From: Candidatus Komeilibacteria bacterium
Lineage (GTDB): Bacteria > Patescibacteriota > Patescibacteriia > UBA1558 > GWA2-36-10
Assembly: GCA_018656655.1 (NCBI GenBank)
Contig: JABHYW010000014.1
Location: 1-38,462, forward strand
Length of the DNA stretch: 38,462 nt
Direction: 5' to 3'
Both the position numbers and the translations under genes were made by a program. The notes below the pieces were generated by a model. That model had not been told where the DNA came from and did not search any database. It worked only from the letters and a program-made list of their open reading frames with translations. This document shows positions 29,278 through 32,296 of the stretch, one piece after another; the stretch's first letter is position 1, and each line of letters starts with the position of its first letter.

Positions 29278-29322
29278 TTGACAGAATTTTAGAAGAGTGT
29301 TACTATACCCCCATAGGGTATA
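29278..29322 (+). promoter_or_regulatory. Promoter and operator of the CsoR/CstR-like gene
   Basis: TTGACA (29278-29283), 17 nt, TACTAT (29301-29306). A perfect 7-bp inverted repeat TATACCC-N5-GGGTATA (29304-29322) overlaps the -10 and the start site. It resembles the G/C-tract operators bound by CsoR/CstR-family repressors. Confidence 0.75.
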
Positions 29323-29332
29323 TATTATAAAT

Positions 29333-29593
29333 ATGAAAAAAACCTGTAAACCAGAACGAATTGTTTCCCAACTTCATCGTATTGAAGGGCAAATTCGAGC
29401 TGTAGAAAAGATGTATAACGAAAAGCGCAATATAGAAGACATTATATGTCAGGTTAAAGCAGCTAGAGCGTCACTCGATTCAGTTACTAAACTTTTAGTA
29501 GACGATAAGGTTAGTGGTTGCTATGATGGTACTAGAGTAGCTAAGAAAAAAGAATTATTAAAATTAATAGACGTTTTATTTGACGTCACATAA
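29333..29593 (+). CDS. CsoR/CstR/RcnR-family repressor with altered sensor residues
   Basis: 86 residues from the ATG at 29333 (MKKTCKPERIVSQLHRIEGQ). The longer frame from 29297 crosses the operator. The family core QLHRIEGQIRAVEKMYNEKR (13-32) and the C-terminal LLKLIDVLFDV are clear. These all-alpha tetramers release DNA on binding Cu(I), Ni/Co or on persulfidation. Aligned by eye to CsoR, the first Cys is Ile34 and the His is Lys59; only the last Cys is kept (Cys63). A new Cys39 sits five residues after the usual first Cys, and Cys5 is extra. Cu(I) sensing is therefore unlikely; a thiol-based sensor resembling CstR is possible. It lies upstream of trxA-trxB-gdhA in the same direction and likely represses itself through the palindrome at 29304-29322. 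Confidence 0.85.
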   Translation: MKKTCKPERIVSQLHRIEGQIRAVEKMYNEKRNIEDIICQVKAARASLDSVTKLLVDDKVSGCYDGTRVAKKKELLKLIDVLFDVT

Positions 29594-29598
29594 ACCAG

Positions 29599-29658
29599 TG
29601 TCATCCCGACCGCAGTGGAGGGATCTAGTTAGATTTCTCGACTTCGCTCGAAATGACA
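29599..29658. repeat. REP/MITE-like palindromic repeat
   Basis: 60-nt imperfect palindrome bounded by TGTCAT and ATGACA. The halves TCCCGACCGCAGTGGAGGGA and TTTCTCGACTTCGCTCGAAA are separated by TCTAGTTAGA. The words CGACTTCGCTCGAAATGACA and relatives are a recurring intergenic repeat in many bacterial genomes. It is much more G+C-rich than its surroundings. Confidence 0.75.
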
Positions 29659-29685
29659 TTAGAGTTAATAAATTAAGAAAATAAT

Positions 29686-30012
29686 ATGGCATTAGAATTA
29701 ACAGATCAAAATTTTAATCAAGAAGTAAAAGAATTTAAAGGTGTTATTTTAGTAGATTTTTGGGCACCTTGGTGTGGACCATGTAAAATGCAAGGTCCAA
29801 TTGTAGATGAATTAGCTGAAGAGTTAAAAGATAAAGAGGGTGTAAAAATAAGTAAGCTTAATGTTGATGAAAATCAATCTAAAGCAGGTGAGTATAAAGT
29901 AATGAGTATTCCAACAATTAAAATCTTTAAAGATGGTAAAGATGTAGAAACTATGGTTGGTATGCAGAACAAAGATGTGTTACTTGAGATGATTGATAAA
30001 CATTCAAGTTAA
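29686..30012 (+). CDS. trxA: Thioredoxin
   Basis: 108 residues with the standard fold and active site: VDFWAPWCGPCKMQGPIVDE (WCGPC near residues 27-31) and the cis-proline segment KVMSIPTIKIFKDGKDVETM. It keeps cytoplasmic thiols reduced. The loop ELKDKEGVKISKLNV is slightly longer than in E. coli. The gene is 4 nt upstream of trxB, so the reductase and its substrate are made together. Confidence 0.95.
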   Translation: MALELTDQNFNQEVKEFKGVILVDFWAPWCGPCKMQGPIVDELAEELKDKEGVKISKLNVDENQSKAGEYKVMSIPTIKIFKDGKDVETMVGMQNKDVLLEMIDKHSS

Positions 30013-30016
30013 ATAT

Positions 30017-30997
30017 ATGCCTGAACACACAATCTCTAAAGATGGAGAAAATAAAATATATGATGTAGTAATAGTCGGCGGTGGTCCTTCAGGACTTACA
30101 GCTGGAATATATACTAGTCGTCGAGCTATGAAGACTTTGATAATTTCCAAAGATATTGGTGGTCAAATTTCTTTGACAGACGATGTAGAAAATTATCCAG
30201 GTTTTGAAAATATAGAAGGGTTAGCCTTGGCACAAAAATTCCAAACGCAAGCTGCCAAGACTGGCACGGAATTTTTATTTGAAGAGGTTACTCAAATAGA
30301 TAAAACCGACGATGGTTTTATTGTTAATACTGGGACTAAAAAAGCTATCAAAGCTAAAACAGTCATTTTAGCTTTTGGTCTTACACCAAGAAATCTAGAA
30401 GTACCCGGCGAGAAAGAATTAACTGGTCGAGGAGTTACCTATTGTGCTACTTGTGATGGACCTCTTTATAGAGATAAGACTGTAGTAATAGTCGGTGGTG
30501 GTAATTCAGCCTTGGATGCTGCTGAATATATGTCAAAAATTGCTAAAAAAGTTTATTTATTAGTTCGTAAAGATAAATTTCGTGGAGAGCAAGTCTTGGC
30601 GGATAAAGTAATGGCCGATAAAAATATCGAAGTGATGTTTAAGGCTGTTGTCTCAGAAATAAAAGGTAAAGATAGAGTAGAATCTTTCGTTTATAAAATT
30701 GCAGATACCGAAACTAAAGAAATACAAATCGATGGAGTGTTTATTGAGATAGGGCATATAGCTAGCACTAAGTGGTTGGATAATTTAAATTTAGATCGCA
30801 CCGAAAGAGGTGAAATAAAGATTAGTGTAGATAATGAAACAAATATCCCTGGCATATTTGCCGCTGGTGATATTACTGAAATTACTTATAAGCAAGCAGT
30901 TATTTCGGCTGGCGAAGGTTGTAAAGCAGCCTTACAAGCTTATAGACATCTACAGGGCGATAAACCGATGGCTCCAGATTGGACTCCTAAGAAATAA
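30017..30997 (+). CDS. trxB: Thioredoxin-disulfide reductase
   Basis: About 326 residues from the ATG at 30017 (MPEHTISKDGENKIYDVVIV). The frame back to 29993 lies inside trxA. FAD site: VIVGGGPSGLTAGIYTSRR. Redox centre: GVTYCATCDGPLYRDKTVVI. Pyridine-nucleotide site: VGGGNSALDAAEYMSKI. Second FAD segment: GIFAAGDITEITYKQAVISA with GEGCKAALQAY. The residues after the nucleotide fold read VRKDKFRGE where NADPH-specific enzymes have HRRDxxRA, so the coenzyme preference is not certain. It reduces TrxA. Linked to gdhA by an 11-nt gap. Confidence 0.93.
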   Translation: MPEHTISKDGENKIYDVVIVGGGPSGLTAGIYTSRRAMKTLIISKDIGGQISLTDDVENYPGFENIEGLALAQKFQTQAAKTGTEFLFEEVTQIDKTDDGFIVNTGTKKAIKAKTVILAFGLTPRNLEVPGEKELTGRGVTYCATCDGPLYRDKTVVIVGGGNSALDAAEYMSKIAKKVYLLVRKDKFRGEQVLADKVMADKNIEVMFKAVVSEIKGKDRVESFVYKIADTETKEIQIDGVFIEIGHIASTKWLDNLNLDRTERGEIKISVDNETNIPGIFAAGDITEITYKQAVISAGEGCKAALQAYRHLQGDKPMAPDWTPKK

Positions 30998-31008
30998 CAA
31001 ATAAATAT

Positions 31009-32238
31009 ATGAATGCATATGATAATGCTCTTAGGCAGTTAGAAAAAGCTGCTAAGCTGATAAAATTAGATAAAGACGTTTTGGCTAGATTGTCTAGTCC
31101 AGAAAAAGTAGTAATGGCTTCATTGCCAATTCGGATGGATGATGGATCTTTGCAAATTTTTCAAGCTTATAGAGTACAATATAATAGTGCTCGGGGACCA
31201 TATAAAGGTGGAATTCGTTTTCATCCGCAAGTAGACCTTGATGAAGTAAAGGCTTTGGCTTTTTGGATGGCAATCAAGGCAGCTGTAGTTGGCATTCCAA
31301 TGGGCGGCGGTAAAGGTGGAGTGATAGTTGATCCTAAATCTTTATCTGAAACTGAATTAGAAAAATTATCTCGGGCTTGGATTAGAGCTTTTAGAGAAGT
31401 GATTGGACCTGAGAAAGATATTCCAGCGCCAGATGTTTATACTACTCCTCAAATTATGGCTTGGATGGCGGATGAGTTCTCTAAATTAGAAGGTAAGCCC
31501 TCGCTTGGTGTAGTAACTGGCAAACCATTAGAATATGGTGGTTCACTGGGAAGAAATAGTGCCACAGCTATGGGTGGATTTTATGTTTTAGGTCAGGCCA
31601 TTGATAAGTTTGGCTTAAAAACAAATAAATTAAAAGTAGCTATTCAAGGATTTGGTAATGCTGGGTCTATTATGGCTAAATTAATGTATGATGCTGGTTA
31701 TAAAGTAGTGGCTTTGGCAGATTCCAAAGGCATTATTTATAATACTAGAGGATTTAATATAGACAAAGTAGTGGAACATAAAGCTACAAAAAAAAGCCTT
31801 AAGACTTTTAAAGGGGCTAAGAAAATTAGTTTAGAAGAATTTTTTGCACTTGAAGTTGATGTCTTAGTGCCAGCTGCTTTGGAAAATCAAATTACTAAAG
31901 ACAATGCTGATGATGTTAAAGCAAAATTTGTTGTGGAATTAGCTAATGGACCGACCACTCCAGAGGCAGATGAAATAATGTATAAAAATAAAGTGATAGT
32001 TATTCCAGATGTACTAGCTAATGCTGGTGGTGTGACTGTATCTTACTTTGAATGGTTACAAAACCTGTCTAATAATTATTGGACAGAAGAAGAGGTAGAT
32101 AAAGAACTTAAAGAAAGAATGATTCCAAGCTTTGAAGCTATCTGGGCTATGGCCGAAGATAAAAAAACTGATTTACGTACAGCTTCATTTATGGTAGCTC
32201 TTGATAGAATTGCCCAGGCTTCTAAAGTAAGAGGTTAA
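31009..32238 (+). CDS. gdhA: Glutamate dehydrogenase (Glu/Leu/Phe/Val dehydrogenase family)
   Basis: 409 residues, close to hexameric GDHs of about 415-420. Landmarks: RVQYNSARGPYKGGIRFHPQ; the catalytic lysine stretch MAIKAAVVGIPMGGGKGGVI; PEKDIPAPDVYTT; the Rossmann motif VAIQGFGNAGSIMAKLMYDA; ELANGPTTPEADEIM; and PDVLANAGGVTVSYFEWLQN. It interconverts glutamate and 2-oxoglutarate with NAD(P)H. Family members that use branched amino acids share these motifs, but the length and PMGGGKGG context favour glutamate. Last gene of the csoR-trxA-trxB-gdhA set, so redox carrier and nitrogen metabolism may be co-expressed. Terminator at 32257-32296. Confidence 0.92.
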   Translation: MNAYDNALRQLEKAAKLIKLDKDVLARLSSPEKVVMASLPIRMDDGSLQIFQAYRVQYNSARGPYKGGIRFHPQVDLDEVKALAFWMAIKAAVVGIPMGGGKGGVIVDPKSLSETELEKLSRAWIRAFREVIGPEKDIPAPDVYTTPQIMAWMADEFSKLEGKPSLGVVTGKPLEYGGSLGRNSATAMGGFYVLGQAIDKFGLKTNKLKVAIQGFGNAGSIMAKLMYDAGYKVVALADSKGIIYNTRGFNIDKVVEHKATKKSLKTFKGAKKISLEEFFALEVDVLVPAALENQITKDNADDVKAKFVVELANGPTTPEADEIMYKNKVIVIPDVLANAGGVTVSYFEWLQNLSNNYWTEEEVDKELKERMIPSFEAIWAMAEDKKTDLRTASFMVALDRIAQASKVRG

Positions 32239-32256: not shown

Positions 32257-32296
32257 AAATACTTCCTGACTGAGCTTAGGAAGTATTTTGTTTTTT
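32257..32296 (+). terminator. Terminator of gdhA
   Basis: AAATACTTCCT (32257-32267) pairs perfectly with AGGAAGTATTT (32278-32288), then TGTTTTTT. Confidence 0.9.

Follow-up and report, generated by a model that had tools for sequence, protein, structure and literature searches.

The window, the whole stretch of 38,462 nucleotides that was analysed, is located on contig C36 of a draft genome (779,582 bases, 84% complete) from a Patescibacterium to which Candidatus Komeilibacteria and other Parcubacteria MAGs are closely related. It contains a gene encoding a CsoR/RcnR-family repressor, csoR, followed by trxA, trxB, and a gene encoding a Glu/Leu/Phe/Val (ELFV) dehydrogenase, which probably form one operon (Table 1). 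The preliminary description of this DNA had assigned positions 29278-29593 to the repressor. The csoR gene (29333-29593) falls within that range, but the range also takes in the promoter. The statement that the next genes are trxA and trxB, and not copper or sulfide genes, was correct, and the dehydrogenase gene is the fourth of the series.

Table 1 Features of the csoR-trxA-trxB locus. Positions are those of the window.
Feature	Positions	Strand	Remarks
Promoter, sigma-70-like	29278..29306	+	TTGACA-N17-TACTAT, TG before the -10; 10/12 matches; serves the probable csoR-trxA-trxB-dehydrogenase operon
Candidate operator palindrome	29304..29322	.	TATACCC-CCATA-GGGTATA; perfect; overlaps the -10; placement kept in the family
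csoR, CsoR/RcnR-family repressor, 86 aa	29333..29593	+	ATG 29333, stop 29593; PF02583, conservation, AF2, fold match
Cys5 codon	29345..29347	+	N-terminal; invariant in 21/21 of the clade
Cys39 codon	29447..29449	+	Confined to three genomes of one genus
Cys63 codon	29519..29521	+	Z cysteine; invariant in 21/21
REP-like hairpin between csoR and trxA	29597..29661	.	No T run after it; missing in the closest relative
trxA, thioredoxin (WCGPC)	29686..30012	+	TIGR01068 above cutoff
trxB, thioredoxin reductase (CATC)	30020..30997	+	TIGR01292 above cutoff
ELFV dehydrogenase, fourth in the probable operon	31009..32238	+	11 nt past trxB; order kept in the family
Terminator-like hairpin with T run	32257..32288	+	3' of the dehydrogenase gene; closes the operon

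The perfect TATACCC-N5-GGGTATA operator that had been described as covering the promoter was found again, overlapping its -10 element. The full palindrome was the sole match in the window at ≤2 mismatches, with 0.08 matches expected in shuffled sequences, and its core was the sole match at ≤1 mismatch across the 779,582-base genome. No second copy was thus present in this genome at ≤1 mismatch, and the idea of a wider regulon was rejected on this ground. Among the 20 genomes of the same family, the perfect core ATACCC-N5-GGGTAT was detected automatically in 18, always 0-20 nt before the ATG. In G018, where G stands before it in place of A/T, the core was recognized by eye; the core of G009 is cut by the start assumed for that gene. 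In most relatives, a TTGAC element precedes the operator by 25-28 nt. Since the operator is located directly upstream, the start codons of csoR are fairly secure. The short distance between operator and ATG also indicates that the csoR mRNA probably has little or no leader, in the window (29304-29335) as well as in the relatives.

The csoR-trxA-trxB order, and likewise the position of the dehydrogenase gene, was conserved through the family. The trxA gene is on the csoR strand, and the distance from the csoR stop codon to the trxA ATG was ≤38 nt in 17 of 21 genomes, leaving little room for a separate trxA promoter. The conserved operator, gene order, and short gaps make it very probable that the protein represses csoR itself together with the thioredoxin genes, as had been proposed. 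The gap is longer in the window (92 nt) because the REP-like hairpin was inserted there, and a 98%-identical relative (L008) has a gap of 38 nt and no hairpin. This hairpin (60 nt, -29.4 kcal/mol) occurs once in the host genome as judged by its pattern, and L017, L023, and L031 carry other insertions at this junction.

The encoded protein belongs to the CsoR/RcnR family (DUF156), scoring 62.4 bits with PF02583 (cutoff 22.8). The AF2 monomer (mean pLDDT 90.6, falling to 77 for residues 1-10 at the N-terminus) consists of helices 7-29, 34-61, and 72-82, and this all-helical protomer had InrS, CstR, CsoR, and FrmR as its best PDB matches, with a probability of 1.00. As expected for the family, the repressor would act as a tetramer (dimer of dimers), and it would bind the candidate operator. 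With X, Y, and Z denoting the positions of the canonical first cysteine, the histidine, and the second cysteine of the sensor pocket, respectively, the window protein has Ile34 at X, Lys59 at Y, and Cys63 at Z. These two replacements and the retention of Cys63 had already been noticed with the right numbering, together with an additional Cys39. However, this inventory overlooked a third cysteine, Cys5, in the N-terminal sequence MKKTC. In the AF2 monomer, Cys5 immediately precedes helix 1 and Cys63 immediately follows helix 2, and the limits of the helices suggest that both lie at one end of the hairpin formed by these helices.

The preliminary description had proposed that the sensor cysteine was relocated to Cys39, in place of the lost first one, with a possible approach to Cys63 across the dimer interface. 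We compared 21 thioredoxin-linked relatives, comprising 20 of the same family and one sister-family genome. Cys5, usually within a C-x-P motif, and Cys63 were invariant (21/21), and position X was occupied by I, V, L, or A in all of them, showing that the canonical cysteine has been lost. Cys39 was shared by 3 of the 21, the window protein and two others of its genus, of which four genomes were sampled. The corresponding residue is mostly Arg elsewhere in the clade and is Arg in G022, the fourth genome of that genus, and one origin of Cys39, by a single change, suffices on the tree. Moreover, Cys39 lies five residues from X, or about 140 degrees round the helix, and should thus face away from the pocket. 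Its lack of conservation, which the preliminary description had itself named as a ground for refutation, and its single origin led us to reject Cys39 as a moved sensor cysteine, and a Cys39-Cys63 pair is very improbable. The always-present cysteine is Cys5, so that a substitute for the lost X cysteine, if any, would be Cys5. The disulfide or polysulfide signal suggested together with Cys39 fared better, as the locus naturally reads as one that responds to a thiol signal, although the pairing of Cys39 with Cys63 is unsupported.

By its residues, the window protein is neither a copper CsoR, nor an FrmR, nor a CstR. An X cysteine is common to all metal-sensing subgroups (PMC5016687), and the characterised sulfur- and formaldehyde-sensing members considered here also use it. 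FrmR senses formaldehyde with Pro2 and its X cysteine, both of which are required (PMC5146963); Pro2 lies about 3 Å from Cys35 of another subunit, so that the N-terminus reaches the sensor pocket (PMC5146963). The window protein belongs to the same family and could likewise use its N-terminus, as the N-terminal residue at position W is used in the pocket of FrmR/RcnR proteins. However, W acts there together with the X cysteine, whereas here X is lost (Ile34), the MKKTC start lacks Pro2, and, in a by-eye alignment, the N-terminal cysteine is displaced inward from W by about one helical turn. As the operon also lacks a formaldehyde-detoxification gene, formaldehyde sensing of the FrmR type has a negligible chance of being correct.

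Metals are the signal for most described family members, and Cu(I) can be held by two thiolates. Cys5 and Cys63 could therefore form a two-coordinate site for Cu(I) or another soft metal, thioredoxin being raised under metal stress. The palindromic operator also has the C/G run described for CsoR-RcnR proteins (PMC10318464) and, like the fold, is shared with copper CsoR. However, X-Y-Z reads Ile-Lys-Cys in the window protein instead of Cys-His-Cys, and the His ligand at Y is missing in 69 of 70 thioredoxin-linked proteins (described below). Copper in family genomes is served by Cys-His-Cys paralogs adjoining P-type ATPases: at the copper-type loci L034, L035, and L036, csoR is followed by genes for an HMA-DsbD_2-cupredoxin fusion and a P-type ATPase, the HMA/cupredoxin protein and the ATPase being both seen in two loci and the ATPase in the third. 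The metal type thus occurs with metal genes and the His-less type with thioredoxin genes, and neighbourhood and sensor residues split the family alike. A TspO gene was observed upstream of the copper-type operon in L036. The operon of the window contains no copper efflux gene, and searches of the host genome, as far as its 84% completeness allows, detected neither an HMA domain nor a rhodanese; one full-length peroxiredoxin was present. The absence of other sensors is provisional at this completeness. Such a gene content is more in keeping with a general thiol or peroxide stress than with copper or sulfide oxidation. Copper sensing is disfavoured since the His is missing, no HMA domain was detected, and copper has paralogs of its own; we consider a metal-responsive switch unlikely.

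The closest parallels are found among thiol-based members of the family. CstR (Staphylococcus aureus, Enterococcus faecalis, and YrkD of Bacillus) senses persulfides through two cysteines (PMC9405070, PMC9918477), and in CstR-type proteins and in TTHA1953, affinity for DNA is lost once a cysteine pair is linked by a disulfide or polysulfide (PMC9918477, PMC9405070, PMC10318464). Like CstR, the window protein lacks His at Y, keeps Z, and lies in an operon with sulfur/redox genes, and sister thioredoxin-linked proteins carry the X+Z pair of CstR. Unlike CstR, the window clade carries a cysteine at the N-terminus but none at X, and the operon encodes thioredoxin and its reductase, with the dehydrogenase, and not sulfide/persulfide detoxification proteins such as rhodanese, SQR, or persulfide dioxygenase. 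TTHA1953 of Thermus thermophilus is also CsoR-like with two cysteines; a disulfide weakens its binding to DNA, and it represses an operon led by a thioredoxin gene, soxW (PMC10318464). However, it controls these sox genes from a distant locus, its gene is not beside a trxA-trxB pair, and its consensus site, TACNNTACNNNNGTANNGTA, contains no C/G run. The window protein probably works like CstR or TTHA1953, by analogy with these two-cysteine precedents. Together with the N-terminus of FrmR that enters the pocket and the location of both cysteines at the same hairpin end in the model, they make a Cys5-Cys63 thiol switch the most economical reading.

The distribution of cysteines was then considered at a larger scale, from a class search of 381 genomes and a phylum search of 380 genomes, in which the proteins and neighbours of all fetched loci were read. 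Thioredoxin-linked CsoR proteins were widespread in the phylum. As loci were picked by their score with the profile of the window clade or its extension, the following counts describe a sample and not natural frequencies: the 70 thioredoxin-linked proteins comprised 26 with N+Z (N being the N-terminal position), 24 with the CstR-like X+Z, 8 with N+X+Z, 8 with X alone, 2 with Z alone, and 2 with none. At least two cysteines were thus found at these positions in 58 of the 70 proteins, and His at Y in one. The comparison set without thioredoxin linkage was mostly Cys-His-Cys. Every class member lacking X but keeping Z had an N cysteine of the Cys5 type.

Ten of the 70 proteins with one pocket cysteine, and two with none, speak against a universal pair. 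Those with Z alone (L136 and L142) and the eight with X alone indicate that members of the wider group can do without a pair, and Cys63 might act on its own, through an inter-subunit disulfide or by reacting with a low-molecular-weight thiol to a mixed disulfide or persulfide, with Cys5 being structural or contacting DNA. Such a single-thiol sensor is rather unlikely in the window clade, where Cys5 is invariant (21/21); a cysteine of its type also occurs in all class members with Z but no X. A group of thioredoxin-linked proteins (L077, L080, L082, L086, and L107) has X as its only pocket cysteine, an Arg-rich start resembling RRxSRT, and Leu or Met at Z, and the two proteins without any cysteine at the pocket positions (L083 and L089) may sense something else or be constitutive.

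Taken together, we favour, with a probability of about 0.6, an autoregulated sensor of the thiol state (disulfide or polysulfide) that derepresses the thioredoxin operon via the Cys5/Cys63 pair. The reduced tetramer would sit on TATACCC-N5-GGGTATA across the -10 element and block transcription of csoR, trxA, trxB, and the dehydrogenase gene. Oxidation of thiols upon disulfide, peroxide, or polysulfide stress would then join Cys5 and Cys63 by a disulfide or polysulfide bridge, or modify one of them, and the affinity for DNA would drop, such that thioredoxin and its reductase would be produced until reduction undoes the link. Evidence for the regulon is good; what we infer is DNA binding, the oligomeric state, and the chemistry, namely the sulfur species that is sensed and the meeting of Cys5 with Cys63.

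On the tree, the N+Z arrangement was found in at least two supported groups, one containing the window family with G001 and the other G175, G102, G132, and G157. In addition, a supported group united G172 (N+Z) with G097 and G153, both N+X+Z. The tree was built from 77 columns and its backbone is without resolution, and few events bear on the exchange of N for X cysteines or the reverse: a sign test of N-Cys versus X-Cys on independent pairs had only 3 pairs on starred branches. We give roughly even odds to the broader proposal that a redox pair which does without X, with one cysteine N-terminal to helix 1 and the other at Z past helix 2, belongs to a phylum-wide regulator of thioredoxin operons in Patescibacteria, in which the pair has moved among three adjacent positions (N+X+Z, X+Z, and N+Z) while the target genes stayed constant.

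A large natural clade devoid of the X cysteine would show that the scaffold has other means of sensing, and the natural series of cysteine arrangements offers a ready set for testing the movement of a redox pair within a fixed pocket. Our literature search, mostly of open-access scope and thus a weak basis for a statement of novelty, found no paper joining CsoR, thioredoxin, and Patescibacteria. According to the literature searched, this is the first lead on how the thioredoxin system is regulated in these reduced, mostly uncultured bacteria. Searches of viral contigs detected no relatives, and those found on plasmids were distant, of the metal type, and all below 60% identity. Finally, three class members with three cysteines (L073, L091, and L095) have a different upstream palindrome, around ATACTAGTAT, which does not contain a C/G run.
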